From NCBI GenBank assembly GCA_937125225.1, contig CAKZLE010000009.1, forward strand, positions 1 to 32,848: a stretch of 32,848 nucleotides of DNA, read 5' to 3'. Below are positions 15,472-31,445 of the stretch, piece after piece (within the stretch, counting starts at the first letter, position 1; each line of letters starts with the position of its first letter). Below the pieces are notes generated by a model, which did not search any database, was not told the DNA's origin, and saw only the letters and a list, made by a program, of their open reading frames with translations. Origin of the DNA: an uncultured Spirochaetia bacterium. Lineage in GTDB: Bacteria > Spirochaetota > Spirochaetia > CAKZLE01. The translations under genes and the position numbers were made by a program.

Positions 15472-15483
15472 AAATACGTAATG
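15472..15483 (+). promoter_or_regulatory. Putative AraR-like operator (ABC operon)
   Basis: AAATACGTAATG, with the core TACGTA (15475-15480) five bases after the -10 box. It matches 9 of 12 positions of the site seen at 31434. A half-site GACTACG follows at 15483-15489. A bound repressor would cover the transcription start. Confidence 0.5.
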
Positions 15484-15514
15484 ACTACGCTGTCAGTTCC
15501 AATAAGGGGGAAAC

Positions 15515-16825
15515 ATGAACAAACGAATCGTAACTTTGATGATTATGGTATGTCTATTAGTACCAATGGCTCTATTCGCAGGTGGCCAGCAGGAAGCTGC
15601 TGTAGAGGAAGCAGGCGCTATCACCGCACCAGCAGAAGCAACTAGTGTTGATATGATCGGTTGGAGATATCCAATCACAGAATTCTATGCAGGGGAACTT
15701 GAAAAAAGTAATTCAGTAAAGAACCTTACAGTAAATACACAGATGTTTGATTCAGGATCTGCAAAAGATCAGGTGAGATTGGCATTATCAGGATCTGGTG
15801 TATCTCCTTATGAAATCATTCATGGAGATGATGGTTTCGTATTAGAGATGGCTGCAGAAGGGTGGTTGATGCCACTAGATGATCTTATTGCTCAGTACTC
15901 TGACAAATATGATCTTACAGATATCTCAGATGCACTTTATAGTCTTGGTTCATTTGAAGGAAAGACTTATGGTATCCCAATAGTATCAAACTCAATGAAC
16001 TATTTCTACAATATGGAATTATTCGAGAAATATAATCTTGAAGTTCCTGATACCTATGATGATGTTATCGCGACTGCAAAAGTCCTACAAGCAGAAGAGA
16101 GCATTGACCTTCCTTTTACCATTAACCTTCATGCAGGATGGGCTTGGAGAATCGAATTCCATAACTTCCTCATAGGATATGGTGGAAAATGGTTGAATGA
16201 TGATAACACTCCTGCTTTTAACAATGAACTTGGTGTAAAAGCTGTAGAAAAGATGTTAGAAGTTTATCGAGCTACAATGGGCGAAAAAGGCCTAACATGG
16301 AGTATCGATGATTCAGAGATCGGAATGGAAACTGGAACACTCGCAAGTGCAATGACATGGACAAGCCGTGCAGCAAACATGGATGATCCTTCAAAATCAA
16401 TGTATGTTGGAAAGATCGGTTTCGCACCAGCTCCAAGAGTTGTTGAGGGTGGACCTCATGCAGGACCTGCAGCAGCAGACTTCTACTGTATCCCTGCAAA
16501 TATCGATGTTGATCCAGAATTGATCTTCCAGGTTATCATGGAAGCAGCAGACTTAGAAAGCCAGATGTTAGCAGCTGAAGAGGGAATGGTAACTCGAGGC
16601 GCTGTCGCAGAAGCAGGAGCAGGTGGACGATACCTTGCTGCAGCTCAGGCTACAGTAGCTAATGGTTCAGGAAACTATGGTTCAAACCCAGCAGTTAGAC
16701 TTGCTACAGCAGCGATTGATAATCTTCTTTCTAAAGTTGCTAGTGGTGACATGACCGTGAAAGAGGTTCTTGATGAAGCAGCTGCTCTCTATACAGAAGA
16801 GGCAAAAGCTCAAGGCTACCTATAG
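15515..16825 (+). CDS. CUT1-type ABC transporter, extracellular solute-binding protein
   Basis: 436 aa secreted binding protein of the large (family 1, MalE-like) class. The signal peptide ends ALFAGGQQE without a lipobox Cys. The mature protein has family features such as YGIPIVSNSMNYFYNMELFEKY and the late TRGAV segment. The ATG at 15515 has AAGGGGG four bases upstream. First gene of an operon with two permeases; no ATPase is encoded, so a shared MsmX-like ATPase elsewhere is expected. It is driven by a good promoter with a TACGTA operator, probably controlled by the regulator at 18916. The ligand is unknown; family and context suggest a sugar, sugar acid or glycoside. Confidence 0.88.
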   Translation: MNKRIVTLMIMVCLLVPMALFAGGQQEAAVEEAGAITAPAEATSVDMIGWRYPITEFYAGELEKSNSVKNLTVNTQMFDSGSAKDQVRLALSGSGVSPYEIIHGDDGFVLEMAAEGWLMPLDDLIAQYSDKYDLTDISDALYSLGSFEGKTYGIPIVSNSMNYFYNMELFEKYNLEVPDTYDDVIATAKVLQAEESIDLPFTINLHAGWAWRIEFHNFLIGYGGKWLNDDNTPAFNNELGVKAVEKMLEVYRATMGEKGLTWSIDDSEIGMETGTLASAMTWTSRAANMDDPSKSMYVGKIGFAPAPRVVEGGPHAGPAAADFYCIPANIDVDPELIFQVIMEAADLESQMLAAEEGMVTRGAVAEAGAGGRYLAAAQATVANGSGNYGSNPAVRLATAAIDNLLSKVASGDMTVKEVLDEAAALYTEEAKAQGYL

Positions 16826-16857
16826 AACTAGAGAACCAGTTTAACAAGAATTAATAC

Positions 16858-16892
16858 AAGAGCCTGGTTCTATATGATTGAATCAGGCTCTT
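16858..16892 (+). terminator. Intercistronic hairpin, attenuator-like
   Basis: AAGAGCCTG (16858-16866) pairs with CAGGCTCTT (16884-16892), followed by ATTTT. A competing pairing exists: AGAACCAG (16832-16839) with CTGGTTCT (16864-16871), sharing three bases with the first arm. The region between the binding protein and permease genes can therefore fold two ways and probably lowers permease expression. Confidence 0.6.
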
Positions 16893-16918
16893 ATTTTAAG
16901 CGAATAAGGTGAAATTTC

Positions 16919-17779
16919 ATGAATGATAAAACATTTTTTACATTCGTTAGTCCTTCTGTAATTATTATGGTATTGCTCATGGTCATACCGTTGATAACTG
17001 CAATTGTGTTAGGATTTAACTTTGTAACATATTCAAATTTAGAGGAACCGCAATTTGTCGGATTGAGTAATTATATTGATATGCTTACTGATCCTGGTTT
17101 CTGGAGCTCTTTCAGCTTTACATTTATCTACATTGTTACGGTTGTTCCCTGCTCCTTACTGTTAGGTTTCGGCATAGCCATGTTACTTGATCAGGTTCGA
17201 GTCTTTAGAGGATTCTTCATTGCAACTGCTTTGATTCCTCATATCATCACACCCGTCGTAGGTGCATTGATGTATCGTACCATGTTTGACAGGAGTGGTC
17301 TGTATTGGTACCTCCTGAGAGCTGTCTTCGATTACGACTTTGTGATGACAACGACTTCCGTACGATTCTTGATCATTACTCAAGGAATCTGGCAGGTGAC
17401 TCCCTTTGCGATGATCACACTATTTGCTGGACTTCAGACACTGCCTAAGCAGTTGATGGAAGCAGCGACTGTTGACGGAGCTACTGCAGTTCAGAAATTA
17501 TGGCATATCATACTGCCGCACCTGAAATCTCTGTTCCTGTTCATTACACTCATGGGAATCATGGATGCCTACAGAGTCCTCGACCAGGTGCTTGTAATGA
17601 CTAAGCAGAACCCATTATTCAATGCAGATACTCTTATGTATTATAATTATCGTGTTGCAACGATGTTCGGTCGTCTTGGAAAGGCAAATGCTATGTCTAT
17701 CTTGACTGTCCTAGGTATCTTCGTGGTATTGATCCCATTCTTACGGGTTACCTATAAGCAACAAATGGAGAGCAGATAA
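16919..17779 (+). CDS. CUT1-type ABC transporter, permease 1 (MalF-like)
   Basis: 286 aa membrane protein with about six hydrophobic segments; one of two subunits of the channel. The EAA loop that contacts the ATPase is visible: LMEAATVDGATAVQKLWHI. The ATG at 16919 has AAGGTGA six bases upstream. The stop (TAA, 17777-17779) overlaps the next start by one base, so the two permeases are coupled. It is separated from the binding protein gene by a 93-base gap with a hairpin. Confidence 0.9.
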   Translation: MNDKTFFTFVSPSVIIMVLLMVIPLITAIVLGFNFVTYSNLEEPQFVGLSNYIDMLTDPGFWSSFSFTFIYIVTVVPCSLLLGFGIAMLLDQVRVFRGFFIATALIPHIITPVVGALMYRTMFDRSGLYWYLLRAVFDYDFVMTTTSVRFLIITQGIWQVTPFAMITLFAGLQTLPKQLMEAATVDGATAVQKLWHIILPHLKSLFLFITLMGIMDAYRVLDQVLVMTKQNPLFNADTLMYYNYRVATMFGRLGKANAMSILTVLGIFVVLIPFLRVTYKQQMESR

Positions 17780-18789
17780 TGGAAAAAGTAAAAAATCCTA
17801 TTGGTAGAGCTCTGATCTTTTTAGCGCTCGTACTATTAGTCGTATATAGTATCATGCCTTTTGCATGGAGTCTGATAACCTCACTGAAATATCCTGTTGA
17901 GGCAAACAATCCAACTCCTAAGTTGTGGGGTTTTAAAGCTAATCTTGATAACTATGCGGATCTTTGGCTTTATATGAAAGGATCTGAATTCGTACCATAT
18001 GCTATTGGTATTCTTGTGATCATGGTAGCTATCGTTGCATTTGCTATCCTATCGACCAAATTCGAATGGATGTCAAAACCAAAGACTAATATGATTGCGG
18101 TCGCTGGGTTGCTATTAGTATTCTTATTACTCCCTAAATTTGCGAGTATGTCAAAATTCTATGGATACTTCATCAATAGTGTCATCGTTACCGTTGGTAC
18201 TCTTGTCATATCGATATCAATCGGTTGTGTCGGTGGATACGCTCTTGCAAGATACAATAAGATATGGGGTGTTATCATTTTGATTGCTGCCCTTGGTTTT
18301 AGAGCGCTTCCTAGAATGGCCTTCGTATTACCTTACTACTATATTGGGCAATTCACACACTTGTATGATACAAGAATCTTGTTGATTATAACCATGGTGG
18401 CTATTAATCAGCCATTCACTATCTGGATGCTGAGATCTTTCTTTATGGATATCCCAAAAGAGATAGAAGAGGCTGCTATGATTGATGGTGCAGGAAGGCT
18501 TGAGTCATTCTTTAAAGTGATCATACCGATTGCATGGCCTGGAATCATTACTACAAGTCTGTTTACCTTATTGCTGGCTTACAATGAGTTCTTGATGCCT
18601 AAGATCTTGACTCAGACCAACTGGACACTCCCAGTTGCTATCGCATCATATACCAGTGGAGAGGATGCTGCCTATCGAGCAATTGCAGCAGCAGCATCTG
18701 TATCGATTACGATTCCAATCATTATCGTAATCATATTCTTCCAGAAATATTTAGTTAAGGGTTTGGCTTTTGGAGCCGTTAAGGGATAA
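17779..18789 (+). CDS. CUT1-type ABC transporter, permease 2 (MalG-like) with extra membrane segment
   Basis: 336 aa, about 60 longer than usual MalG-type permeases (about 275). The EAA loop EEAAMIDGAGRLESFF is at about 230-245, and the C-terminus (VKGLAFGAVKG) is typical. The extra length lies at about residues 67-127, between the conserved NYADLW (58-63) and YFINSVIV (130-137). It contains two hydrophobic stretches (about 73-91 and 104-120). This suggests eight rather than six membrane helices, with an added hairpin in what is normally the first external loop. The start is set by the one-base overlap with permease 1. Confidence 0.9.
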   Translation: MEKVKNPIGRALIFLALVLLVVYSIMPFAWSLITSLKYPVEANNPTPKLWGFKANLDNYADLWLYMKGSEFVPYAIGILVIMVAIVAFAILSTKFEWMSKPKTNMIAVAGLLLVFLLLPKFASMSKFYGYFINSVIVTVGTLVISISIGCVGGYALARYNKIWGVIILIAALGFRALPRMAFVLPYYYIGQFTHLYDTRILLIITMVAINQPFTIWMLRSFFMDIPKEIEEAAMIDGAGRLESFFKVIIPIAWPGIITTSLFTLLLAYNEFLMPKILTQTNWTLPVAIASYTSGEDAAYRAIAAAASVSITIPIIIVIIFFQKYLVKGLAFGAVKG

Positions 18790-18810
18790 CTTATACAGGT
18801 TATAAACACC

Positions 18811-18840
18811 ATGCCAAGGGTTGTCCAAAACCCTTGGCAT
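18811..18840 (+). terminator. Terminator of the first CUT1 operon
   Basis: Perfect 12-bp stem ATGCCAAGGGTT (18811-18822), loop GTCCAA, AACCCTTGGCAT (18829-18840), followed by TCTTGATT. It begins 22 bases after the permease stop. Confidence 0.78.
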
Positions 18841-18915
18841 TCTTGATTAAATAGCACTATTGACTAAATGTCTTCAATAAAACAATTGATGTAAACATCC
18901 GTAAGGGGTTTGTAT

Positions 18916-20013
18916 ATGAATGGTCTTGAAAAAAGATCAAAACTGACATTGCAACAACAGATCGCTGATAAACTTGAATACAAGATTCTGCATGATGAGA
19001 TTCATATAGGTGATAGACTCCCCTCTATGAGAGAACTTGGCAGGATGTTCGAGGTCAGTCATGAGACTGGAAAAGGTGCGATAACCATCCTTCAAGAGAA
19101 AGGGCTTGTTGAGATCATCCCTAGCAAAGGCGCTTTTGTTATTGAGAACATAAAGAGTGAGAATGTCCCACATGGCTTGATCGGAGTCGTTATTGATAAT
19201 GGGGAGGGGACTACCCCCAAAGACCAGCTTCATACATTATTCGGAAATATCCTAACGGCTGTACATGATCAAGCGGATGATTTCAATTGGCATCCGGTAT
19301 CAAGGTATGTCTGCTACTATGATTTACAGAGCAGGAACCAATATCTAGAAATGCTTAAAAAGGTCGATGGGCTTATCATAGTCAATCTGATTGATACTGA
19401 ATTGATCCGTCTTGCACAAACCAGAAATATACCTGTAGTAGCACTATTGCCAGCATCTTTGGATGATGAGGTAGATGTGGTAGGTATCGACTATGCTCGA
19501 ACCTATTATCTTGCTACAAAATTTCTTCTCGATAAGGGACATAAGAAGTTTACCTATATGGAGAATACAAAACCTTTTGATGCATCTATCAAGAGATGGC
19601 AAGGTATCAAGAAAGCAATCAAACAGAGTGAAAGCGCAGATGCCACTTTAGATCGGATAGACGTGCACTCATGGACCATGGCTAAATACCAAGAGGCTGT
19701 AGCTGAGTGGTTAACTGCAGGAAATACGAGCGATATCATCATATGTGCTAATGACAATATGGGTGTTGCCGCTATAAATGAGATTCAACGAGCTGGACTC
19801 AGGGTCCCTGAAGACATCATGGTGTTGGGAAGCAGGAACACATCTGTTTGTGATATGACTCATCCGACTCAGGCAAGTATCGATTTCAACTATGAGAAGT
19901 TAGTAGAGATCTCCTTGAAGAGAGTGAATGAACGATTGCAGAAACGTGATGATGTTTATATGAAGATCAATATGAATGGTCATCTTGTAGAACGAGATTC
20001 AATCAAAAGATAA
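18916..20013 (+). CDS. GntR-family regulator with LacI-like sensor domain (AraR architecture)
   Basis: 365 aa. Residues about 10-78 form a GntR winged helix-turn-helix (GDRLPSMRELGRMFEVS, then ILQEKGLVEIIPSKGAFV). Residues about 83-365 form a periplasmic-binding-protein-like effector domain as in LacI/GalR (GLIGVVIDN, CANDNMGVAAINEIQRAG, VPEDIMVLGS). This fusion is the layout of Bacillus AraR. A TTG at 18910 is in frame, but the ATG at 18916 has AAGGGG at the right distance. It lies between the ABC operon and the larA-like gene and is the only local regulator that fits the TACGTA operators at four nearby promoters. The effector is likely the locus substrate or an intermediate. Confidence 0.9.
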   Translation: MNGLEKRSKLTLQQQIADKLEYKILHDEIHIGDRLPSMRELGRMFEVSHETGKGAITILQEKGLVEIIPSKGAFVIENIKSENVPHGLIGVVIDNGEGTTPKDQLHTLFGNILTAVHDQADDFNWHPVSRYVCYYDLQSRNQYLEMLKKVDGLIIVNLIDTELIRLAQTRNIPVVALLPASLDDEVDVVGIDYARTYYLATKFLLDKGHKKFTYMENTKPFDASIKRWQGIKKAIKQSESADATLDRIDVHSWTMAKYQEAVAEWLTAGNTSDIIICANDNMGVAAINEIQRAGLRVPEDIMVLGSRNTSVCDMTHPTQASIDFNYEKLVEISLKRVNERLQKRDDVYMKINMNGHLVERDSIKR

Positions 20014-20141
20014 TATTACCCACAATATGTATATGAATCTCAATGAAGCAAAATGACTCTTCAAGGGTAACGGTGTCAAAGGCTATTGACTTGGTGAGAA
20101 TTCAGTTTAACAATGACTGTTATAAAAATAGGAGCAAAATA

Positions 20142-21380
20142 GTGAAACAGATTATTCCATATGGATCAGGCACTGTAGAGATAGATATCCCTGATAATGC
20201 GATGATCATTGAGCCTCAAGATGTCCCGGATTTTGATGAACAAGTAGTATTGGCAGATGCTATGGCCAATCCTGTTGGAGCAGATAGTATAGAGAAATTT
20301 CTAGCCGGTGGAGAGAAGGTACTCGTAATTGTCAATGATGGCACACGACCGACACCGACTGGAGCTGTGATGGAGACGTTATTACCATTACTTGAAGGTA
20401 AGCATGTTACTGTCATGGTCGCTACCGGTGTTCATAGAGGTGCCACTGATGCGGAAATGCGCAGGATCCTGGGACCTACTTATGATGCATTAAAAAATAC
20501 CGTAGTATCTCATGATGCGAGAAAAGATGACGACATGGTCTATCTAGGAGTTAGTGGTAACGGTACTGAGTTGTCAGTTAACAAAGCTGTTGTGGAATCT
20601 GATAGAATCATTGCAATTGGTTCTGTGGAACCTCATTATTTTGCTGGTTATACCGGTGGGAGAAAGGCTATCATGCCAGGAGTGGCCTCATATCGTTCGA
20701 TAGAGATGAATCATAAGATGGCACTCGATCCTAGAGCAAAAGCGTTAGCTTTAGAGGGGAATCCCGTACATGAGGATATGATCGATGTGTTGAACCTCTT
20801 AGAGGATAAGCCCATATATGCGATCATGACTGTCATGAACAAATATCATAAAGTCTATGCCGCTACTACTGGAGATATCACAGGTTCCTTCTATGCCGCT
20901 ATAGATAAGGCGAATGAGGTCTTCTCTGTTAAACTAGAAGCGAAAGCAGATATTGTTTTGACTGTAGCAAAGCCCCCAATGGATATAGATCTTTATCAGT
21001 CACAAAAAGCGATAGATAATGGAAAACTCGCCTTGAAAGAGGGTGGTATCATGATACTAGTCTCTTCCTGTCGTGATGGAGTAGGAGAAGAATCCTTCTA
21101 TAATATGCTTTCCTCCTCTGATACCCCTGAAGAGGTACTTGAACGTATCAAAGGGGAATACAAGCTTGGATATCATAAGGCCGGAAAGATGGCTGAAGTC
21201 AGTAGTTGGGCAGATATCTGGGTGATCAGTGACCTGTCTGATAAGAAGTGGAAAGATATCTTCATCCGACAGTTCAAGACTGTTCAGGAGGCTGTTGATG
21301 AGGCAGTCAAAGCAAAAGGTAATGCAGCTTCCATGGTATTCATGCCAGATGGTTGTGTCACAGTTCCTCGATTGAACTAA
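20142..21380 (+). CDS. larA: LarA-family nickel-dependent hydroxyacid racemase/epimerase
   Basis: 412 aa member of the LarA (lactate racemase) superfamily, which uses a nickel-pincer nucleotide cofactor to invert the alpha carbon of 2-hydroxyacids. Residues known from LarA are present: DGTRPTP (66-72), GVHRG (His98), EPHYFAGYTGG (His165), GGRK (Lys175, equivalent to the cofactor-tethering Lys), MNHK (His191) and YQSQKA. Members act on lactate, malate, gluconate and related acids, so the symbol marks the family and not proven lactate activity. The frame is open back to 20043, but the GTG at 20142 has GGAG seven bases upstream and matches the family start. It follows the regulator with a 128-base gap. 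The cofactor genes larB, larC and larE are not in the window. Confidence 0.88.
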   Translation: MKQIIPYGSGTVEIDIPDNAMIIEPQDVPDFDEQVVLADAMANPVGADSIEKFLAGGEKVLVIVNDGTRPTPTGAVMETLLPLLEGKHVTVMVATGVHRGATDAEMRRILGPTYDALKNTVVSHDARKDDDMVYLGVSGNGTELSVNKAVVESDRIIAIGSVEPHYFAGYTGGRKAIMPGVASYRSIEMNHKMALDPRAKALALEGNPVHEDMIDVLNLLEDKPIYAIMTVMNKYHKVYAATTGDITGSFYAAIDKANEVFSVKLEAKADIVLTVAKPPMDIDLYQSQKAIDNGKLALKEGGIMILVSSCRDGVGEESFYNMLSSSDTPEEVLERIKGEYKLGYHKAGKMAEVSSWADIWVISDLSDKKWKDIFIRQFKTVQEAVDEAVKAKGNAASMVFMPDGCVTVPRLN

Positions 21381-21386
21381 TAAAAG

Positions 21387-21415
21387 CTCCTGATTTTTTT
21401 AGTCAGGAGTTTTTT
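21387..21415 (+). terminator. Terminator of the larA-like gene
   Basis: Stem CTCCTGA (21387-21393), loop of nine bases, TCAGGAG (21403-21409), then six T (21410-21415). It starts just after the stop codon. Confidence 0.85.
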
Positions 21416-21542
21416 AAAGTAAAAATAAATTGCTTAGAGTAAAAGTACGGTAAAAGTTAATAGTGACATCTAAAAATGAAGAAACCCTAAAAATACAACA
21501 TAGTGCAACAAAATTAATTGAGATTTAAATCTAAAATTGTTG

Positions 21543-21571
21543 TTGACAGCAGAAAATAGTAAGGGTAATAT
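21543..21571 (+). promoter_or_regulatory. Sigma-70-type promoter of the TRAP operon
   Basis: Consensus -35 TTGACA (21543-21548), 17-base spacer, -10 TAATAT (21566-21571). TATTAT at 21569 is an alternative -10 with longer spacing. The first operator lies 18 bases downstream. Confidence 0.72.
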
Positions 21572-21586
21572 TATCTAAATTATGAC

Positions 21587-21598
21587 GAATACGTAGTC
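21587..21598 (+). promoter_or_regulatory. Putative AraR-like operator 1 (TRAP operon)
   Basis: GAATACGTAGTC, one mismatch from the site at 21733. TGAC lies just before and GTCA at the end, widening the palindrome. It is positioned at the start of the transcript. Confidence 0.55.
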
Positions 21599-21732
21599 AA
21601 TTGTAGCCTGAATTGAATTAAATCAATCACCAATTCTGCTCAATAATAAGATATTACTTGTTTAATCACCAAAATCAATGATTTACTAGTTGGAAGACTG
21701 TATTAAATCAAAGCTGAGTTCGATATCTAAAA

Positions 21733-21744
21733 GATTACGTAGTC
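21733..21744 (+). promoter_or_regulatory. Putative AraR-like operator 2 (TRAP operon)
   Basis: GATTACGTAGTC, the exact reverse complement of the site at 31434-31445. It lies in the leader, 146 bases centre to centre from operator 1, close to fourteen helical turns. Confidence 0.55.
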
Positions 21745-21830
21745 ATTATTGTAAGAGAGTTAGATATATCATTTACCTATGAAATATTTAACCAAACAAA
21801 GGGATAACACATAACCAAAGGGAGGAAGAT

Positions 21831-22841
21831 GTGAAAAAGACTGTATTATTGATCGCTGTGATTTGTATGTTAATGGTAACTGCAACTGTATTCGCTGGTG
21901 GACAGCAGGAAGATGGGGTAAAGACTATCAGAGCTGGACATGGACAACCTATAGGAACTGGATTACACCAGGGTTTTGTATATTTTAAAGAAGCTTTAGA
22001 GGCTAATTCAAATGGAAAGATGGTTGTTGAGATCTTTGACAGTGGTCAGCTTGGTGGAGACAGAGAACTTACAGAAGGTGTTCAGCTTGGTAATGTGACT
22101 ATGACAGCTGTATCTGCAGCAAACCTTGGTACTTTTGCAAAAGAATTCTATGTTCTTGATACCTATTTCATGTTCAGAGATCGAGAACATGTCTATAACG
22201 TTCTTGACGGTGCTGCTGGGGCGATGATGCTTGATGGTCTTACAGTGAAAGACATGAAAGGTCTTGGATTCTGGGAAAATGGATTCAGACACCTGACTAA
22301 CAGTAAAAGAGCCGTCACAGAGACTGCAGATATGAAAGGATTAAAGATCAGAGTTCCTGACAACCCAGTTCAGATCGCGGCTTGGAACTCAGTTGGAGCA
22401 GGTCCTGCACCAATGGCTTGGGGTGAACTCTTTACAGCACTTCAGCAGAAAGCACTTGATTCACAGGAATCAACACTTGAATCTATCCAGACTATGAAAT
22501 TCTATGAAGTACAGCCGTACCTCACTCTTAGTGGTCATAAATACAGCCCCTATGTCATTCTGATGGGAAATGCTTTCTATAATGAGCTGACAGCAGAAGA
22601 GAAAGGTTGGGTCGATGCAGCTATTTTAGAATCAATCGATAAACAGAGAGTGTTTGCCGCTGCAAATGAGAAGAAAGCTATAGATGCTATCGCAGCTTCA
22701 GGTAAGACTGAAATCGGTGAACTGACTGATGATGCAAAGATGGAATTCCGAGGAAAGATGTCTTCTATCTATGAGATGGTAGAGGAAAAGAGCGGTAAAG
22801 AGATGTTTGATCTCTTTGTATCAGAAGTAGATAAATACTAG
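21831..22841 (+). CDS. dctP: TRAP transporter, substrate-binding protein (DctP family)
   Basis: 336 aa secreted binding protein of a TRAP carboxylate transporter. The signal peptide ends TVFAGGQQEDG, without a lipobox. The family core is visible: GLKIRVPDNPV, with the Arg that usually binds the substrate carboxylate, then PMAWGELFTALQQKALDSQES. The start is GTG at 21831, with GGGAGGA about five bases upstream. It binds an organic acid, in line with the neighbouring hydroxyacid enzymes. First gene of dctPQM; a hairpin follows it. Confidence 0.92.
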   Translation: MKKTVLLIAVICMLMVTATVFAGGQQEDGVKTIRAGHGQPIGTGLHQGFVYFKEALEANSNGKMVVEIFDSGQLGGDRELTEGVQLGNVTMTAVSAANLGTFAKEFYVLDTYFMFRDREHVYNVLDGAAGAMMLDGLTVKDMKGLGFWENGFRHLTNSKRAVTETADMKGLKIRVPDNPVQIAAWNSVGAGPAPMAWGELFTALQQKALDSQESTLESIQTMKFYEVQPYLTLSGHKYSPYVILMGNAFYNELTAEEKGWVDAAILESIDKQRVFAAANEKKAIDAIAASGKTEIGELTDDAKMEFRGKMSSIYEMVEEKSGKEMFDLFVSEVDKY

Positions 22842-22861
22842 AGATAGAATTCTCTATATGT

Positions 22862-22887
22862 AAGCTGCCTCTTTATAGGGGCAGCTT
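22862..22887 (+). terminator. Intercistronic hairpin between dctP and dctQ
   Basis: AAGCTGCC (22862-22869) pairs with GGCAGCTT (22880-22887); the stem can extend by two pairs including a G-T. TCTTG follows. It has the same position as the hairpins after the two plus-strand ABC binding protein genes. Confidence 0.6.
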
Positions 22888-22908
22888 TCTTGAATAAGGT
22901 TGTGAATT

Positions 22909-23451
22909 ATGAAAATTTTACGATGGTTGGATGATTACTTTGAAGCTATCTTCTTAGTCGCTACGCTCTTCAGTATGAGTATCATCATAGCAGTACAGGT
23001 ATTCTTCCGTTATGTGCTGCTCAATTCAATCTCCTGGTCAGAAGAGATCGCTCGATATCTCTTTATCTATATGGTTTATTTTGGTATTTCCTATGCGGTA
23101 AGAACTAATAGACATATCAGGATCGAAGTTCTATTGAACACTCTTCCTGATAAAGCAAAAAAGATCATGACGATAAGCGCTGATATCCTGTTTATGATCT
23201 TTGCAACTGTGGTAACGGTCAAATCAGGTGTAGTAGTTGCAACAATCAGTCGACTTGGACAGATTGCTGGTATAACAGGTATTCCTATGTCGATCATCTA
23301 TTGCGGTGTACCAATTGGGTATGGGATGGTCGTTGTTCGATTATTACAGAATCTCTATCATAAGATAACTCATTTCAGTGCCCCCTATGCTGAGTTCATT
23401 CATAGACGAAATCCAGGTGAAGATCTGGAACCTGCAAAGCAGGAAGGGTAA
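22909..23451 (+). CDS. dctQ: TRAP transporter, small permease (DctQ family)
   Basis: 180 aa membrane protein with four hydrophobic segments, usual size for the small TRAP subunit. The family motif SWSEEIARYLFIYMVYFG follows the first membrane segment. The ATG at 22909 has AAGGT eight bases upstream. It pairs with DctM (11 bases downstream) to form the sodium-coupled membrane part. Confidence 0.92.
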   Translation: MKILRWLDDYFEAIFLVATLFSMSIIIAVQVFFRYVLLNSISWSEEIARYLFIYMVYFGISYAVRTNRHIRIEVLLNTLPDKAKKIMTISADILFMIFATVVTVKSGVVVATISRLGQIAGITGIPMSIIYCGVPIGYGMVVVRLLQNLYHKITHFSAPYAEFIHRRNPGEDLEPAKQEG

Positions 23452-23462
23452 GGGGGATAAAG

Positions 23463-24746
23463 ATGGCAACAGCACTATTATTTGGTGGATTTATATTTTT
23501 CGCTGCGGTAAGTGTTCCAATTGGTATTTCTCTTGGTATGGCAGTCATGCTCGTTATTATTGCAACGGGTACGGTTGATTTGACTTTTATGGCACAGGGG
23601 TTAACCACCTCTATGAACTCATTCCCGTTGATGGCAGCACCGTTTTTCATCTTAGCTGGTGAAGTTATGGGTCGTGGTGGGATTTCTCGTCGATTACTCA
23701 AACTTGCTGATATAGCCTTCGGTAGATTTACCGGTGGTCTTGGTCTCGTTACGGTCGTAGCCTGCATGTTGTTTGCAGCAATCTCTGGAACTGGTTCTGC
23801 TACTGTAGCTGCGATCGGTTCCATCATGGTTCCTGAAATGCTCAAAAAGGGTTATAATAAAGGCTTTGCTGGTGGCTTGGTTGCATCTTCTGGTGCTATC
23901 GGGGCAATGATTCCTCCTAGTATCACCATGGTTATCTATTGTGTGACTGCAGGAGTATCAATAACGGCTCTATTCAGTGCCGGAATTGTTCCAGGTATAG
24001 TTATTGGTTTATCGTTGATGATCTACACACTTATCTACTCTAAAAAGAATGGATATAAAGGATCCTCTCAACGGTATACGACTAAAGAGGTCCTAGCGGT
24101 TATAAAAGATGGAATTCCAGCAATATTGATGCCAGTGATCATACTTGGTGGAATCTATGGTGGGGTCTTTACTCCTACAGAAGCTGCTGCAGTAGCGGTC
24201 GTCTATGGTTTTATCGTAGCACTCTTTGTGTATAAGGAGATCTCCTTCAAAGATGTTGGCGAAATCGTTTTAAAGTCAGCACTGATGACATCAGTTATCT
24301 TAGTTATCATCGGTACTTCAGCGGGCTTCGGTCGTATCCTCGCTTTAGAGAGAATCCCACAATTAATCGCGAATGCGATCGTAGGGTTCTCTTCAAGTAA
24401 GATCGTAATACTTCTTCTATTGAATCTATTATTATTATTTGTCGGAACTTTCATGGAAACATTGGCAGCTGTGATCATTCTTACCCCAATACTCTTACCA
24501 ATCGTAACGAGCTTTGGAATGAGCCCTGTACATTTTGGTGTGATGATGGTCATCAACTTAGCGATTGGGTTTGTGACTCCACCTCTTGGAGCGAATCTCT
24601 TCGTAACGACACAGATCATGGATATATCGTTTGAAGAGGTATCAAGAGCTATCATACCGTTTATTATCACCATGGTTATAGCACTGCTCTTCATTACTTT
24701 CGTACCAATAATTTCCTTGGGATTACCAACCTTATTGGGATTTTAA
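23463..24746 (+). CDS. dctM: TRAP transporter, large permease (DctM family)
   Basis: 427 aa, about 11-12 membrane segments, the usual size of DctM. Family features seen include PLMAAPFFILAGEVMGRGGIS near residue 55, AAISGTGSATVAAIGSIM, GAIGAMIPPSI and the late GFVTPPLGANLFV. It moves the organic acid delivered by DctP, driven by a sodium or proton gradient. A GGGGG-rich ribosome site lies upstream of the ATG. A strong terminator begins 25 bases after the stop. Confidence 0.94.
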   Translation: MATALLFGGFIFFAAVSVPIGISLGMAVMLVIIATGTVDLTFMAQGLTTSMNSFPLMAAPFFILAGEVMGRGGISRRLLKLADIAFGRFTGGLGLVTVVACMLFAAISGTGSATVAAIGSIMVPEMLKKGYNKGFAGGLVASSGAIGAMIPPSITMVIYCVTAGVSITALFSAGIVPGIVIGLSLMIYTLIYSKKNGYKGSSQRYTTKEVLAVIKDGIPAILMPVIILGGIYGGVFTPTEAAAVAVVYGFIVALFVYKEISFKDVGEIVLKSALMTSVILVIIGTSAGFGRILALERIPQLIANAIVGFSSSKIVILLLLNLLLLFVGTFMETLAAVIILTPILLPIVTSFGMSPVHFGVMMVINLAIGFVTPPLGANLFVTTQIMDISFEEVSRAIIPFIITMVIALLFITFVPIISLGLPTLLGF

Positions 24747-24798: not shown

Positions 24799-24800
24799 GG

Positions 24801-24856: not shown

Positions 24857-24923
24857 GTAAGCGTCAAATCAACGGGTCGATAAGAATGAATCGAACCTCA
24901 ATCTACTGGGGGCGGAGGTTTTC

Positions 24924-25267
24924 ATGAGAAAGACAAACAACTATACCATCAAAGAACGTCAAGAACAGGTGAAAGCGTGTTATGAATGGACTCGGCAGGG
25001 GAATACCATTATCTCATACTGTAAAGAGCATGGAGTATCAAAATCAGCGATTGAGTACTAGTCAAGAATATATGGAATACTTATGAGACAGAACACCATA
25101 AACCTCACAAATTATTGGTACCCATAAGGTTTAAGATCCTCACACCATCAGAAGAACCCATCTGTGCATTAACGGTGCATGTGGGATCATTATCCGTCGA
25201 CCTACCGGTCGGGAATCGGGGAACAGATCTGAAGCGGGTACCGCTCCCGCTGAGGGAGGTTCTCTGA
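24924..25267 (+). pseudogene. tnpA: IS66 tnpA (orf1), broken
   Basis: The ATG at 24924 opens a TnpA-like sequence (helix-turn-helix: KERQEQVKACYEWTRQGNT, then SKSAIEY). A TAG at 25059-25061 stands where Trp (TGG) is expected. About 30 bases later the reading frame shifts; the rest (HHKPHKLLVPIRFKILTPSE to REVL) continues in another frame to TGA at 25265. Two independent lesions make it non-functional. The final TGA overlaps the ATG of tnpB. Confidence 0.75.
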
Positions 25268-25617
25268 TGCCGCTTGAATGGGACTCGTATGACTACTACA
25301 TCCAACTAGGAAGGACGGACATGAGAAAGAAAGCCTATACCCTCTCCCTACTGGTAGAGAACGAGATGGAACTCAGCCCGTTCGATCGAAGTGTCTTTCT
25401 GTTCTGTAGCAGGACAAAGCGGATCCTGAAGATTATCGTATGGGGTGGTAATGGATTCTGGGAGATGACCAAAAGATTGGAGGGTAAGGGCACCTTTGCC
25501 TGGCCTGGCAGTACGGAGGACGCGCTAAAGACCAGCCTAGATGACATCAAGCTGCTGCTCAAAGGGGCAGATCCCTGGCGAAGACTGACGGTGTTGCACC
25601 TTCAGAAAGTAAGCTAA
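25267..25617 (+). CDS. tnpB: IS66 TnpB (orf2), apparently intact
   Basis: 116 aa, normal length for the IS66 Orf2 protein. Family features are present: DMRKKAYTLSLLVENEMEL, DRSVFLFCSRTKRILKII and the W-rich GGNGFWEMTKRLEGKGTFAWP. Its start overlaps the tnpA stop (TGATG), the usual coupling in IS66. Its exact role in transposition is unknown. It is the only undamaged gene of the element. Confidence 0.85.
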   Translation: MPLEWDSYDYYIQLGRTDMRKKAYTLSLLVENEMELSPFDRSVFLFCSRTKRILKIIVWGGNGFWEMTKRLEGKGTFAWPGSTEDALKTSLDDIKLLLKGADPWRRLTVLHLQKVS

Positions 25618-25689
25618 GATTATGCAGTAGTATGAGTTATGAACGTTCTTAAGGATTGACACTTATCTTGTTTATAGTAAAGTTTTAGC

Positions 25690-26984
25690 ATGAGTAAACA
25701 CCTGATCGAACAGCTTGAGAGTATGGATAGAGACGCCCTTTTAGCGGAGCTTTCCCGTGCTCACGAGCAGATACAGGTGGCTTCCAGAAAAGATCAGGAA
25801 ACACAACAGCGTCTCACCGATACACGACAAGAGCTTGCTCAAGTAACATCTGAACTTGCAGAGATGATCCAAGAGAATGAAATGCTCAAAGAACTTCTCT
25901 TACTAAGAAGTAAACTCCCATTCACCCCTTCAACTGAATAGATGGGACTACTCTTTGATGAGAGTGAGATCCTATCGGTATCTCTCGAGGAAGAGACTGA
26001 GGAAAAGATCACGGTCTCTACTCATCAACGCAGCAGGAAAGCTCACGATCTCACGAAGCTTCCTGCCAATACTCCCGTAGTACACATCTGATGAACTCCT
26101 CTCTGATCAACCAGGATGAGACACCGGTACAGGCGCTGAATCTTCCTGAACCTGCTACCTCGAAGTCAACGTTTATGTTTGTCCAGGTCGGTACCTCAGA
26201 GGATGGGCATCGGGTAGTACGGTATTCATATATCCCGGACCGAAAGAAGGATAGATTCCTCTCTTTCACTGATGGGTATGAAGGGTATGTGATGACCGAT
26301 GGACTGATAGGGTATAATTCACTCTCGAAGCATCTGAACTGCTGGGTTCATGCCCAGCGGAACTTCAAGAAGATCCTTAAGGTGAATAAGAAAGCTTCAG
26401 GAGCATTGAAGTTCATCGGCATCATTAATAAGCTCTACGAGATAGAGAAGAAGACCCGTAAACAATACCAGGACCGGGATGAGTTTCTCAAGATGAGGAA
26501 GGAGCGATGTGCGACAGTGTTCTTTCAGTTGAAGGATACGATGGATGAGAGGAGATCACAGTATACTCCGAAGAGTCCGATGGGAGTAGCGATCGCATAC
26601 CTGTATACCTATTGGGAATCTTTGATTCGGTATGTCGAATGCTATGAAGCGACCCCAGATAACAATATTGCAGAGAATGCTATTCGCCCATTTGTGGTAG
26701 GTCGGAAGAACTGGTTATTCACGAATACTGAGACAGGAGCTAAGAGCTCTGCTGGGTACTACTCTCTCATCGAGACTGCGAAGGCTAACGGAGTGAATGT
26801 CTCTGATTACCTCTGGCATTGCCTTTCTGAAGCTTCAAAGTGCAAAACAGATGAAGATTGGGATAGGTTGCTGCCATGGGCCATGGATGTAGATCTGGTG
26901 TCTGAGATAAAACAGGTAAAAGCCTCTGTTAAACTTAATCCTTTAAGAAAGACTCCATACCTTTTCAGAGAGCCTAGTAAATAG
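25690..26984 (+). pseudogene. tnpC: IS66 tnpC transposase, broken with internal deletion
   Basis: Three pieces of the DDE transposase are seen. Part 1 (25690-25941) is the N-terminal coiled coil, ended by TAG where a Gln codon is expected (STE-stop-MGLLFDES). Part 2 (25942-26092) continues in the same frame to HI-stop. Part 3 (26091-26984, 297 aa) holds the catalytic domain from NQDETPVQALNLP to the C-terminus, with DNNIAENAIRPFVVGRKNW and SLIETAKANGVNVSDYL. Between parts 2 and 3 roughly 100-150 residues are missing (zinc-binding part) and the frame changes. Total remaining is about 430 residues against usually more than 500. Confidence 0.85.
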
Positions 26985-27171
26985 AGTTCATTGAGAACCT
27001 CTGATTTAGTACTTAAGCTGGCACCTAGAGTATATCCAGTTAGAGCTTGTTCATTTAAGTATGATTTTGGCTATTATATATTCTCTCAGTAGTCATGGGT
27101 TCATTAGATCATAATAGTAAGTTAGTTAAAAGGAAATATAGAATTGATTTGATGTGTTGAAGGAAGGAAAT

Positions 27172-27215
27172 AGAAGGAGAGATAATTAGGTTTTCTCTAA
27201 TCATCTCTTCCTTCT
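27172..27215. terminator. Long hairpin after the second CUT1 operon
   Basis: AGAAGGAGAGATAATTAG (27172-27189) pairs with CTAAT-C-ATCTC-T-TCCTTCT (27197-27215) with small bulges. It lies just past the end of the minus-strand binding protein gene, so it probably terminates that operon. The T-run on the minus strand is weak (CTATTT). It also separates it from the IS66 remnant. Confidence 0.6.
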
Positions 27216-27236
27216 ATAGAATGCTATTGTTTAGTT

Positions 27237-28616
27237 CTATTTATAATAGCCTGCTCGTACCATGATTTCTGTAACTTCTTTTTCTGCTTTAGCTAGAGCC
27301 TCTTCGACTTCTGATTCGCCTGAAGCAACGTTATTTAGAGCTAGAACTACTTTCTCTGCAGCCTGAACCCATTCTGGGAAGCTTGGTTGTGTTCTAGCTG
27401 TCTCAAGAATAGTTGCTGCAACATTATGAAGTCCATTGTTAAGTTCATTGACTTTTGGATCTCTCAGAGTTGCGAACTGTGCTGCTACTGAGGTGAGCAT
27501 CTTAGGATCACTCTTGTCGGTAACGGCTCTCAAGTCCATCTTTGCACTGTTCGCCCATTTTACAAATTCCCATGAAGCATCTTTCACGTCTGAGAAAGAG
27601 GTCACTGATAATGGCATGGACATTGCGTATGATACCTGATTACCGTCAACTCCGGGTACATTACAGAATCCTATCTGATCTACTGTGAGTTCACTTGAGT
27701 CAGGATTCTGGAAATTCCCATAAGCCCACCAGAATGCATAGACCATAGCTGCTTCGCCAGTAGTGAAAGAAAGGTTTGCATCATATTCTGAATAGGATAC
27801 ACTACCTGGTGCTGCAGAATTATCTTCCAAGATAGGTTTCATATAATCTTTAGTAGCTTCAATTCCCTTGGGAGTATTGAATGCAGGTCTCCAGTCAGCA
27901 TCAAACATCTCTGCACCGTTTGCCCAGAGGTAGGTTAGCCATGGATAGACGACCTGTTCAGCTGTCTTCCCATACTGAAGGGCTGTTCCATACATATCTT
28001 CATTCTCTGTTATTACTTTTGCATTATGCTGGAATTCTTCAAATGTAGCAGGTTCCTGAAGGTCATATTTCTCATAGAGATCTTTTCTGTAGAATAACAT
28101 CATTGGATGTGTTCTTAGAGGAAGACCGTATACTTCACCATCAAATGAACATGATTCGATATATGCATCTGACCATCTGGTTAGATCGATTCCATCATTC
28201 TCGATTCTATTGTTCAGTGGTTCTAGGTAATTGCTTAGCGCAGGTACCCAAGTATAATGGCTGATGAATACATCATAATCTGAAGTTCCTGATACCGCTT
28301 CAATAGTAAACTTTTGATAGAGGTCACCATAAGGGATGGTCTCAATCTCAACTTCTATACCTGTCATTTCCGTAAACTCTGTCAGGTATTTCTTTATAAG
28401 ATTGTTCTGTCCACTAGGGTGAAGTAACGCTTGAACCTTCGCGCCGGAAAATGGCATACCTGGGGTCAGATCCCAAGATTTGATCTCTTCTACTGAATAT
28501 TTTGATTGTACTGCTGGTGCTGCCGTCTCTTTCTCTTGCTGGCCACCTGCGAATACCATCCCAACACTGATTGTCATGATGAGTACTAAAGCTATTGCTA
28601 AGATTCTCTTTTTCAT
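27237..28616 (-). CDS. Second CUT1-type ABC transporter, extracellular solute-binding protein
   Basis: 459 aa secreted family 1 binding protein. The signal peptide ends MVFAGGQQEKE, the same boundary motif as in the three other binding proteins here. Internal features include YDVFISHYTWVPALSNYLEPLN and YGLPLRTHPMMLFYRKDLYEKY, typical of sugar-binding members. The ATG at 28616 has GGAGG five bases upstream. It is the last gene of its operon (permease-permease-binding protein), the reverse of the order in the first CUT1 operon. No ATPase is present. Ligand unknown. Confidence 0.88.
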   Translation of the reverse strand: MKKRILAIALVLIMTISVGMVFAGGQQEKETAAPAVQSKYSVEEIKSWDLTPGMPFSGAKVQALLHPSGQNNLIKKYLTEFTEMTGIEVEIETIPYGDLYQKFTIEAVSGTSDYDVFISHYTWVPALSNYLEPLNNRIENDGIDLTRWSDAYIESCSFDGEVYGLPLRTHPMMLFYRKDLYEKYDLQEPATFEEFQHNAKVITENEDMYGTALQYGKTAEQVVYPWLTYLWANGAEMFDADWRPAFNTPKGIEATKDYMKPILEDNSAAPGSVSYSEYDANLSFTTGEAAMVYAFWWAYGNFQNPDSSELTVDQIGFCNVPGVDGNQVSYAMSMPLSVTSFSDVKDASWEFVKWANSAKMDLRAVTDKSDPKMLTSVAAQFATLRDPKVNELNNGLHNVAATILETARTQPSFPEWVQAAEKVVLALNNVASGESEVEEALAKAEKEVTEIMVRAGYYK

Positions 28617-28661
28617 GAACGCCTCCTTTTAATATATATCATCCCTATACTGGGAAGAACA

Positions 28662-29486
28662 CTATTTGACTGCCCCAAGAGTGAGACCTTGAGTAAAATG
28701 CTTACGAACTAAGAATGAGAAGATGAAGATAGGGATCATAATAATAATCCCCGCTGCTGACATTTGTTCCCAGATAACACCTCTATCAGTGACAAGACTA
28801 TTAAGACCTACGGTCATCGTGATTGCATCTTTTCTTGTGAGGATGAGTGCAAAGAGGTATTCATTCCAAGATTGAATCAGGGTAAAGATAGCTGTGGTGA
28901 TAATCCCCGGCATCGCTAGGGGGATGGTGATCTTTGTGATGACCTGCATAAAAGAACACCCTTCGACAAAGGCAGCCTCTTCTAGTGTGATTGATAAACC
29001 ATCTACAAACCCCTTGATCATCCATGTTGCGAAGGGCAGTACGAAACTGAGATTCATAAGTACCAAAGCTATACGGGTGTCCATCAAGTGCAGGGTTCTA
29101 AATAGCACGAAGTATGGGATCACAATTACCACAGGAGGTATGAACTGAGTCGAGAGTAACCAGATGAGTAATAGATTCTTCACCCGGTAATGGAATCTTG
29201 ATAAAGCATATGCAGCAAGTGTCGCCACAGGTATCGCTATGAGAATCGTTAACAGAGCAACAATTACGCTATTAGTAAGCAGTTGACTGAAGGTGTTCGG
29301 TTCAGAGAATATATCGATATAGTTCTGGAACGTTGGTTTGAAGAATAGGCTTGTAGAATAGGCATCCTTTGCTTTTTTGAAGGCAGTGAGTGATAGCCAG
29401 ATAATTGGGAGGAAAACGAAAATCGTTGTCACAAGTAGCCCAAATGCACTTACGAGTTTACTCAGAAGTTTCTTGATTATATTCAT
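28662..29486 (-). CDS. Second CUT1-type ABC transporter, permease 2 (MalG-like)
   Basis: 274 aa, the usual MalG length, with six hydrophobic segments. The EAA loop LEEAAFVEGCSFMQVITKI and C-terminal FTQGLTLGAVK are typical. The ATG at 29486 overlaps the stop of the preceding permease (ATGA), so they are coupled. It is a useful comparison for the longer paralogue at 17779-18789, which has an insert this one lacks. Confidence 0.92.
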   Translation of the reverse strand: MNIIKKLLSKLVSAFGLLVTTIFVFLPIIWLSLTAFKKAKDAYSTSLFFKPTFQNYIDIFSEPNTFSQLLTNSVIVALLTILIAIPVATLAAYALSRFHYRVKNLLLIWLLSTQFIPPVVIVIPYFVLFRTLHLMDTRIALVLMNLSFVLPFATWMIKGFVDGLSITLEEAAFVEGCSFMQVITKITIPLAMPGIITTAIFTLIQSWNEYLFALILTRKDAITMTVGLNSLVTDRGVIWEQMSAAGIIIMIPIFIFSFLVRKHFTQGLTLGAVK

Positions 29487-30373
29487 GCGTTTGAGTCTCC
29501 CTTCATAACGGTCTTGATATAAACCCCAGCAAATACGATCATGAATAGGATGAGAAGTACTGATTGGGCTGAGGCATACCCCATCTCAAAGAATTTGAAT
29601 CCATTCTTATAGATAAAGAAGTTTATAGCCTCCGTCGATTGTCCGGGCCCCCCGTTTGTAAGGGTGAGAATCTGATCAAACACCTTAACGGAGAAAATTG
29701 TCTTTAACAGCGTGACCATCAATAATACCGGAAGGATCAATGGTATCTTTACAAATCGCAACATCTGATACTTATTAACTCCATCGATCTTTGCAGCAGC
29801 AAAGACATCCGGATGGATCATATCAAGAGCACCAATGAAGACTAAAGCGATAAAGGGTGCCCATCCCCAGATCTCTGTATAGGCCAACCAGAATAAGGCC
29901 CCTGACTTGGTACCTAATAACACTACATCTTGTAGTGAGGGTATGAGTGTTCCAAGAATTTTATCGATTATCCCATAATGAGGATTCAGCATGAATCTCC
30001 ACGTATACCCTTTTAAAGCAGGGCTGATGGCATAAGGAAAGATCAAACAGGCCTTTAATATCGTTCTGTAGATCCCCTTTGGATATAACTGTAGAGCAAT
30101 CGCTATAGCGATGATAATAGAAAGCGATACAGACATTATGGTGAAAATGAGAGTCACACCTACAGAATTCCAGAAATCAGGGTCTTGGAATGCTCTTGTA
30201 TAGTTATCAAATCCAATTAACCCGCTTGGCTCTGGTGATTTCAGAAGATTCCAATCCTGGAAACTGACTATTAACACATTAAAGATCGGATAGATAGTCA
30301 TAGCAACCAAAATGATCAGAGCTGGCGCCAAGATGATCCATTTTTTTGGACCTCGATAGATTACACTGTTCAA
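29483..30373 (-). CDS. Second CUT1-type ABC transporter, permease 1 (MalF-like)
   Basis: 296 aa membrane protein with about six hydrophobic segments and the EAA-type loop DVFAAAKIDGVNKYQMLRFVKIP. The typical MalF/UgpA motif TLTNGGPGQSTEAINFFIY is present near the C-terminus. The start is likely TTG at 30373, with GGAGG nine bases upstream; the frame continues to an ATG at 30424, but without a good ribosome site and with an unusual N-terminus. First gene of the second CUT1 operon. Confidence 0.88.
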   Translation of the reverse strand: MNSVIYRGPKKWIILAPALIILVAMTIYPIFNVLIVSFQDWNLLKSPEPSGLIGFDNYTRAFQDPDFWNSVGVTLIFTIMSVSLSIIIAIAIALQLYPKGIYRTILKACLIFPYAISPALKGYTWRFMLNPHYGIIDKILGTLIPSLQDVVLLGTKSGALFWLAYTEIWGWAPFIALVFIGALDMIHPDVFAAAKIDGVNKYQMLRFVKIPLILPVLLMVTLLKTIFSVKVFDQILTLTNGGPGQSTEAINFFIYKNGFKFFEMGYASAQSVLLILFMIVFAGVYIKTVMKGDSNA

Positions 30374-30391
30374 AGTAGAAACACCTCCAAT

Positions 30392-30403
30392 GGTTACGTA
30401 TTC
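30392..30403 (-). promoter_or_regulatory. Weak AraR-like operator candidate (second CUT1 operon)
   Basis: GGTTACGTATTC matches 10 of 12 positions of GATTACGTAGTC. It lies just before the ribosome site of the permease gene, far from the best promoter candidate (30560-30588), so its role is less clear than the other sites. Confidence 0.3.
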
Positions 30404-30486
30404 ATACAAGCTGAAAAACCACATATTCCAGTTGATACTATTAGATGCATAAAATGGTCTGTTGAATTATTAGATGTATGAAGATC

Positions 30487-30502
30487 AAGAACGTTTGTTC
30501 TT
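30487..30502. promoter_or_regulatory. Inverted repeat in the leader of the second CUT1 operon
   Basis: AAGAAC (30487-30492), GTTT, GTTCTT (30497-30502). It could be an operator for another regulator or a small mRNA hairpin. It lies between the candidate promoter and the first gene. Confidence 0.4.
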
Positions 30503-30559
30503 CTCTAATGATATCATGATATTCAGATGACGCAAGAAGAATAATTAGCTTTATCGACG

Positions 30560-30588
30560 TATTTAAGCGTATACACCCTGAAAATCAA
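30560..30588 (-). promoter_or_regulatory. Candidate promoter of the second CUT1 operon
   Basis: On the minus strand: -35 TTGATT (30588-30583), 17-base spacer, -10 TAAATA (30565-30560). ACGTCG follows the -10 directly, a partial likeness to the operator core. It would give a leader of about 180 bases. Confidence 0.45.
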
Positions 30589-30599
30589 CTAGGTAGTAA

Positions 30600-31400
30600 A
30601 AATAATATAAAAATATGAAGACAATAATTTTTTGTAGAAATGGTTTTTTTAGTGGCGACTCAAAGGGATAAGCAAATTCTTTTTGATACAGAAAATAGAT
30701 AATCGATTTATGTTAATCAATAAGGTTTATAACTAGTTATGTATAATATACATTTGTAAATGTTTTAAGTAAAACTAACAGATAGAATAAAAAAGCAAAT
30801 CTTCACCAGCCTTTATAATAAAATGACTACAACCATATTCCTGAAAGTTAAAGTGGGATGCTGTCTTCTATTGAGAAGTTTCTTTTACTACGAGTCTTCG
30901 GTAGGTTACCTATAGTTTTGTCCTCAGATACTGATTAAAATGTTTGATGAACTGATGATACATAAGTTGAGAGTCTCCTATCTGCTGTTATTGTTCGCTT
31001 ATGATAACGAAGTTATCCTTTTTCTGAGAGCAATATCATCCCAGGTGTGTTACCTGTTAAGTTGGGGCCTTAGGTGTAGTTTAGGAACTATGAGCTCCAT
31101 TGATCCTGTAACAAATCAAAGCAGTATCTCAGCTGTATGAGTCGAAACTCCTTGTAGAGAATTATTCCTGAGAGATTAACTATGAATAAACGATTCATAA
31201 GTTCATCGTTTTTCAATTATGCACCAGGATCCTCTCGAGTGGCTGATCATGCATCCATAGTAGTATTACTAAGTATTGGCTAGGGGTTTATAAACTATTG
31301 TAATGAAATAAGATAAATAAGAAAGAGTCATTTTTTAATGACTCTTTAGGGTGCTTGGATGTACTTGTCAAAAATACTTCATAAAAAATCAGAAGAAAGT
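30600..31400. other. AT-rich gap without a credible gene
   Basis: About 0.8 kb between the divergent second ABC operon and the dehydrogenase gene. Only short frames occur, such as 66 codons at 30940-31140, with no recognisable product and no good ribosome site. It holds AACGAT/ATCGTT (31189-31210, then TTT) and a perfect terminator-like hairpin (31322-31347). These suggest a lost or decayed gene, or an unrecognised small RNA. Confidence 0.5.
31322..31347. terminator. Orphan terminator-like hairpin
   Basis: Perfect 11-bp stem AAAGAGTCATT (31322-31332), loop TTTT, AATGACTCTTT (31337-31347). No gene ends just before it on either strand. Confidence 0.6.
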
Positions 31401-31402
31401 CA

Positions 31403-31431
31403 TAGACAATTTTGAAGTGTGATTGTATACT
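31403..31431 (+). promoter_or_regulatory. Sigma-70-type promoter of the dehydrogenase operon
   Basis: -35 TAGACA (31403-31408), 17-base spacer, -10 TATACT (31426-31431). The TACGTA core begins five bases after the -10, exactly as in the ABC promoter at 15441. Confidence 0.72.
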
Positions 31432-31433
31432 AA

Positions 31434-31445
31434 GACTACGTAATC
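31434..31445 (+). promoter_or_regulatory. Putative AraR-like operator (dehydrogenase operon)
   Basis: GACTACGTAATC, the exact reverse complement of the site at 21733-21744. It overlaps the expected transcription start, consistent with repression by the regulator at 18916. Confidence 0.6.

Follow-up and report, generated by a model that had tools for sequence, protein, structure and literature searches.

LacI-family sugar regulons, AraR of Bacillus subtilis and the RbsR/PurR/CcpA group are the described systems closest to the one considered here. AraR is a chimera of GntR and LacI types that recognizes the box At(T/A)tGTaCGTAcaa(A/T)T (PMC4218819). LacI-family sugar regulons have been treated by Ravcheev et al. 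2014 (PMC4052901), and the string "spirochaet" occurs nowhere in that text. In the literature searched, no account was found of a LacI regulon for a tripartite ATP-independent periplasmic (TRAP) transporter in spirochaetes, or of a LacI operator with a TACGTA core; for GntR or LacI regulators in Sphaerochaeta, the one paper that came up concerns a rumen metagenome. The subject of this work is a palindrome with that core, which recurs at promoters within a 32,848-nucleotide stretch of DNA (the window) from an uncultured Spirochaetia bacterium (NCBI GenBank assembly GCA_937125225.1, contig CAKZLE010000009.1). The window is contig C9 of the source genome, G000, of 3.43 Mb.

The 14-bp dyad TGAYTACGTARTCA is best read, with a probability of about 0.85, as the operator of LacI-B, a LacI-family repressor whose gene would be found outside the window, towards the distal end of an operon led by the window's Ldh_2-family dehydrogenase gene. 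A previous, sequence-only reading had noted four TACGTA-core sites before an ATP-binding cassette (ABC) transporter operon, a TRAP operon and the Ldh_2 operon, and had assigned them to an AraR-like regulator encoded between them. All four sites were located where that reading had put them, and GATTACGTAGTC (21733-21744) and GACTACGTAATC (31434-31445) are indeed exact reverse complements; the dyad fits both (21732-21745 and 31433-31446). The geometry also holds, with TACGTA five bases past the -10 at both the ABC promoter (15441-15469; -10 at 15464) and the Ldh_2 promoter (31403-31431; -10 at 31426). At the latter, the shared operator lies over the likely transcription start, and more generally a site is found 0-8 bases past a good -10 at the Ldh_2, URO-D-like and G001 C93 promoters (G001 is introduced below). 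Two sites, spaced by 146 bp, precede dctP, an arrangement that would allow looping between them. At the ABC promoter, the site at 15472 is present, but TGACTACGCTGTCA fits the shared dyad better than that site, AAATACGTAATG, does. The idea of one regulon stands for the TRAP and Ldh_2 promoters, which share the operator; the ABC promoter, with a two-mismatch match, may or may not belong to it.

Counts within the window do not exceed chance: TACGTA occurs 6 times versus 3.39 +/- 1.92 in shuffles, and the 12-mer GAYTACGTARTC, with up to two mismatches, 6 times versus 3.50 +/- 1.98. The case beyond chance is instead made by promoter placement and by conservation at orthologous promoters. The comparison was made with G001, the only other genome of the source family included, which belongs to a different genus. 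TACGTARTCA has 9 occurrences in G000 and 7 distinct ones in G001, and 12 of these 16 are intergenic, versus 1 of 30 for reversed-pattern controls (Fisher p = 5e-7; intergenic calls followed one automatic open reading frame (ORF) rule, and the controls are the 30 of 40 places that had loci). Genome-wide, the pattern is less frequent than its reversed control but differs from it in placement. Of the four remaining sites, two fall within coding DNA, and the other two coincide with the 5' edge of ORFs that seem spurious or too long; one intergenic G000 site, on C7, has no assigned gene.

Conservation before orthologous operons, which the earlier reading had named as a check, was found. The site is kept in G001 before the TRAP (DctP, 79% identity), Ldh_2 (79%), URO-D-like (86%) and cupin-hydrolase-HpcH (cupin, 84%) operons. 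Upstream of a 2-hydroxyacid dehydrogenase gene (85%), G001 has AGAATACGTAGTCA, and a degenerate TGACTAGGTAGTCA occupies the same place in G000. The full dyad TGAYTACGTARTCA is present at three places in G001, is also found in G049 and G072, and occurs in 14 of the 297 genomes of the class. The lists of sites with up to two mismatches in G000 and G001 are lower bounds, and further targets are possible. A one-sided element was also considered, as 10 of 10 asymmetric sites with a downstream gene in the two genomes are oriented the same way, but the sites of G066 and G067 are reversed, and this candidate was rejected. At the cupin operon, an IS66 transposase gene interrupts the G001 cupin gene directly past its start. 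A dyad 5' of that operon, ACCGTAC...GTACGGT, was first read as a local operator; it may equally be a terminator.

The LacI-B gene is on contig C3 of G000 (114438-115457, minus strand), with a PF00356 match at C3:115293-115427. NCBIfam LacI-type matches extend across residues 6-336, comprising an N-terminal helix-turn-helix (HTH) and a periplasmic-binding-like sensor. Its G001 ortholog, 70% identical, is on C22. The gene run on C3 is FucI-HpcH-GAPDH-PGK-racemase-LacI-SGL, cut at its upstream end by the contig, whose terminal bases resemble, by eye, the end of an SDR gene. The window, for its part, ends within a creatininase gene downstream of Ldh_2, 86 codons from the start of that gene. On C78 of G001, the order site-Ldh_2-creatininase-SDR-FucI-HpcH continues to near the contig end. 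FucI and HpcH of C3 are 84% identical to this G001 operon versus 63-64% to the paralogous operon A (C31), and the window Ldh_2 is 79% identical to the C78 copy (operon B) versus 59% to the paralogous copy. Because the C3 FucI and HpcH match the C78 operon more closely than operon A, the most likely place of LacI-B is in the operon starting at the 31433 site, through a join of C9 and C3 that we infer. The linkage in G000 and G001 is one of synteny, since gene and promoter are on separate contigs. Creatininase gene starts are found in G000 at both C9:32589-32846 and C4:173125-173382, each cut by the contig end after the same residue. The operon is probably duplicated and the assembly broken there, and the second copy, at the C4 end, may account for the break.

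Operon B so reconstructed would encode Ldh_2, creatininase, SDR, a FucI-like protein, an HpcH/HpaI aldolase (nearest models GarL, below cut-off), GAPDH, PGK, a racemase and an SGL-family protein, and is likely a sugar-acid route. The GAPDH (C3:117551-118570; L206:3552-4571, minus strand) is of type II, the archaeal type, with 414.6 bits versus an NCBIfam cut-off of 185; it adjoins PGK and is kept in G066 and G086.

Orthologs of LacI-B with at least 56% identity were found in 6 of the 297 class genomes (G000, G001, G049, G066, G072 and G086) by a search that scored at most 7 first-look candidates per genome. The perfect 14-mer is present in 3 of these 6 versus 11 of the 291 others (p = 0.0015). 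In G049, which belongs to another family, a single contig carries the perfect site, Ldh_2, creatininase, SDR, FucI, HpcH, racemase and LacI-B; the places of GAPDH and PGK are without a long frame. When relatives of LacI-B with at least 48% identity are taken, a site with at most one mismatch to WGAHTACGTARTCA, in either reading direction, precedes Ldh_2 in all 6 genomes that have Ldh_2 promoter sequence (G000, G001, G049, G066, G067 and G072), and several of these sites are directly past a -10 box. G086 was left out of this count because its contig ends inside FucI.

Several points weigh against the assignment to LacI-B. The 56% and 48% cuts were chosen after the list had been seen, and the perfect 14-mer is present in 3 of 9 when all genomes at E <= 1e-60 are counted. 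The Ldh_2 proteins of G067 and G072 are closer to the A-type reference (60 and 62%), and the identity of the G067 LacI reaches only 48-49%. G072 carries the Ldh_2 site on one contig and LacI-B on another, and in both G000 and G001 LacI-B is likewise separated from its presumed operon promoter. The perfect 14-mer is absent from G000, and TACGTARTCA is genome-wide no commoner than its reversed control (24 places in G000, 16 in G001). Another LacI protein could be the binder, because at least 22 of 51 LacI-HTH regulators have no parsed HTH code. Finally, for binding and expression the argument is drawn from sequence.

If LacI-B recognizes the dyad, its dimers would cover the transcription start, just past the -10, and prevent initiation; we infer repression from this position. 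Control of the Ldh_2 operon would then be autoregulation, and the TRAP transporter would be a second target. Unlinked targets would include the URO-D-like and cupin-hydrolase-aldolase genes and, probably, the 2-hydroxyacid dehydrogenase and a second TRAP operon. An intermediate of the pathway, perhaps a keto-sugar acid, may release LacI-B. The role left to the AraR-like regulator would be a local one at the ABC operon, exerted at another dyad, which lies in the -35 to -10 spacer.

It is unlikely that the AraR-like GntR-LacI regulator binds the TACGTA palindrome and holds the ABC, TRAP and Ldh_2 operons together as one regulon, as was first proposed. Its gene is located between the sites and has the domains ascribed to it, a TACGTA core is found in the B. 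subtilis AraR box too (PMC4218819), and both genera keep TACGTAATGACTACGCTGTCA at the ABC promoter. However, G049 has the site, the Ldh_2 operon and LacI-B, but no AraR-like ortholog was found there, the best match being 26% identical over the sensor part at E = 1.3e-13 (G066, G067, G072 and G086 were not searched). In G001, the ortholog (71%) adjoins the same ABC operon on contig C63, apart from the TRAP and Ldh_2 genes, which are together with their sites on C78; the linkage of the regulator to TRAP does not hold there. Two matches of 21-23% identity were all that a contig search with the AraR-like protein yielded. Similarity of its GntR domain to AraR itself is weak, with E = 0.32 and rank 30 of 37 matches for the solved B. 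subtilis domain, and AraR is not among the best 60 of 103 matches in a full-length search of solved structures. The ara box WTTGTACGTACAAW, with up to three mismatches, has two matches in the window, both with three (1120 and 10642) and neither at these promoters. As to arabinose genes, Pfam matches, which cover 25 ORFs of the window and not the rest of the genome, name none.

A dyad that better suits the AraR-like protein as candidate operator is CGTAAGYTTACG, whose only two exact places in G001 are the promoter of the regulator's own gene and the spacer of the ABC promoter; one further place, elsewhere, has one mismatch. It is poorly kept in G000, where the locus has no match with up to one mismatch and the ABC promoter has CGGCAGCTTACG instead. 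A paralogous GntR-LacI regulator is followed directly, in both genera, by an M19 peptidase gene, within whose 3' end are TGACTACGAAGTTA (G000 C18:122579-122592) and TGACTACGAAGTCA (G001 C63:38143-38156).

It is quite improbable that the shared sites are bound by some other TACGTA-core regulator, either the LacI-HTH protein at C32:3944, near AGAATACGTATTCT, or one that was not parsed. Several LacI-HTH regulators of the lineage do accompany dyads with this core, and sites like GAATACGTAGTC (21587) are intermediate between the two consensus types, but operon company and co-occurrence single out LacI-B, and upstream in the neighbourhood of the C32 regulator are paired perfect sites proper to it. 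The AGAATACGTATTCT dyads are found near a LacI gene at C32 and C79, and pairs of this type, about 53 bp apart, are present near it in both genera (L175:193-259 and L184:2864-2931). The G000 pair precedes genes that appear SnoaL-like by eye. Among 105 regulator loci (54 GntR-HTH and 51 LacI-HTH matches), the 60 scanned include none with a site of 0-1 mismatch; six have two-mismatch sites (L141, L143, L151, L175, L179 and L184), of which those at L175 and L184 are AGAATACGTATTCT pairs. As a mark of TACGTA-core recognition, the HTH code Q[AS]R was considered; Q is at that place in 7 of 29 distinct parsed LacI proteins (of 51 LacI rows, 20 had no regular-expression match, 1 had no locus and 1 was a re-read neighbour). 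The idea that Ser or Ala in this code sets the flank was ruled out, as LacI-B of G072 has QAR. Least probable of all is that the likeness of the sites is mere chance with no common regulator, since, although neither the window counts nor those of the 10-mer genome-wide rise above what shuffles or the reversed pattern give, the sites are preferentially intergenic and are conserved at orthologous promoters across families.

Besides LacI-B, the lineage has LacI-A, a paralog with 41% identity to it, on C4 in G000 and C31 in G001. The two appear to be sister regulators, and their operators, which share a core, would be sisters as well. The dyad TGTATACGTATACA goes with LacI-A before operon A in G000, G001 and G075. 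It is repeated at operon A both in G075, whose LacI is nearer A (87%), and in G030, whose LacI relative is nearer A than B (44%). At the C4 DctQM promoter (L072:8225-8348), the LacI-A type dyads TGCATACGTATACA and TGAATACGTATACA flank one shared-type site, TACGTAGTCA; both kinds of site are present there, and cross-control by LacI-A and LacI-B is therefore possible. A wider picture can be put forward only tentatively: duplicated sugar-acid operons would be under sister regulators whose TACGTA-core operators differ only in their flanks, with at least one promoter carrying both, and the archaeal-type GAPDH and PGK of operon B would hint at an undescribed route within a multi-operon LacI regulon.

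Table 1. Features of the window that bear on the TACGTA-core sites
Feature	Position	Strand	Basis or remark
ABC-operon promoter TTGACG-17-TATTAT	15441..15469	+	sequence
CGGCAGCTTACG inside ABC promoter spacer (-35 to -10)	15445..15456		G001 counterpart is the perfect dyad CGTAAGCTTACG; candidate operator of the AraR-like regulator
ABC site of the sequence-only reading, AAATACGTAATG	15472..15483	+	right part alone conserved in G001
TGACTACGCTGTCA, weak shared-operator match (2 mismatches)	15482..15495	+	identical in G001
SBP_bac_1 binding protein and two permeases (ABC)	15515..18789	+	87, 86 and 84% identity to G001
AraR-like regulator	18916..20013	+	GntR HTH (PF00392) and LacI-type sensor (PF13377, PF00532)
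LarA-family gene (nickel-dependent hydroxyacid racemase)	20043..21380	+	52% identical homologue in the LacI-B gene run, beside LacI-B, in G086
TRAP promoter TTGACA-17-TAATAT	21543..21571	+	sequence
Predicted operator CGAATACGTAGTCA	21586..21599	+	1 mismatch versus WGAHTACGTARTCA
Predicted operator AGATTACGTAGTCA 5' of dctP	21732..21745	+	G001 ortholog preceded by TGATTACGTAGTCA
dctP, dctQ, dctM (TRAP transporter)	21831..24746	+	79, 72 and 87% identity to G001 C78
Ldh_2 promoter TAGACA-17-TATACT	31403..31431	+	sequence
Predicted operator AGACTACGTAATCA	31433..31446	+	same sequence before G001 ortholog
Ldh_2-family dehydrogenase, first gene of operon B	31492..32559	+	79% to G001 C78
Creatininase-family gene, 5' part, cut by contig end	32589..32848	+	

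Elsewhere in the window, IS66-type genes (TnpB and part of a transposase) are present at 25267-26984, between the TRAP genes and reversed ABC genes, and two SnoaL-domain genes are found at 2608-3663 and 14059-15075. At the G001 C93 promoter (L106:7820-7867), a perfect ACTGAACATGTTCAGT dyad is in the spacer and the shared site is past the -10; a divergent TetR gene and a 492-residue gene with no Pfam match are found there.

The proximity assignment is thus corrected, in that the regulator encoded beside the sites is probably not the protein that binds them. If true, the present reading would supply an uncharacterised sugar-acid pathway with a regulon whose operator, regulator and operons are named, and the duplicated regulators would form a natural pair in which to study how operator specificity splits.

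Compared with B. subtilis AraR, the AraR-like regulator of the window has the same domain layout, and the AraR box shares its TACGTA core with the sites; unlike AraR, the flanks are Y-TACGTA-R rather than G-TACGTA-C, and the domain similarity is weak (PMC4218819). LacI-B resembles the RbsR/PurR/CcpA group in that, among NCBIfam models, it scores best with those of RbsR (208.8 and 177.5 bits) and with PurR (162 bits), but these scores are far below the cut-offs of 382, 531 and 501 bits, and its gene company is different. The closest likeness is to the LacI-family sugar regulons, as described by Ravcheev et al. 2014 (PMC4052901): a LacI HTH with a sugar-type sensor, an even palindrome with a central CG, sites close 5' of catabolic genes, and a regulator inside its own operon (on the same contig in G049, by synteny in G000 and G001). 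Unlike those regulons, this one has a TACGTA core and a paralogous pair of operons, A and B; our guess is that this operator class is a spirochaete one. Together, these comparisons suggest that the regulon follows the known LacI-family pattern, and that LacI-B and its site would be a new case within it.

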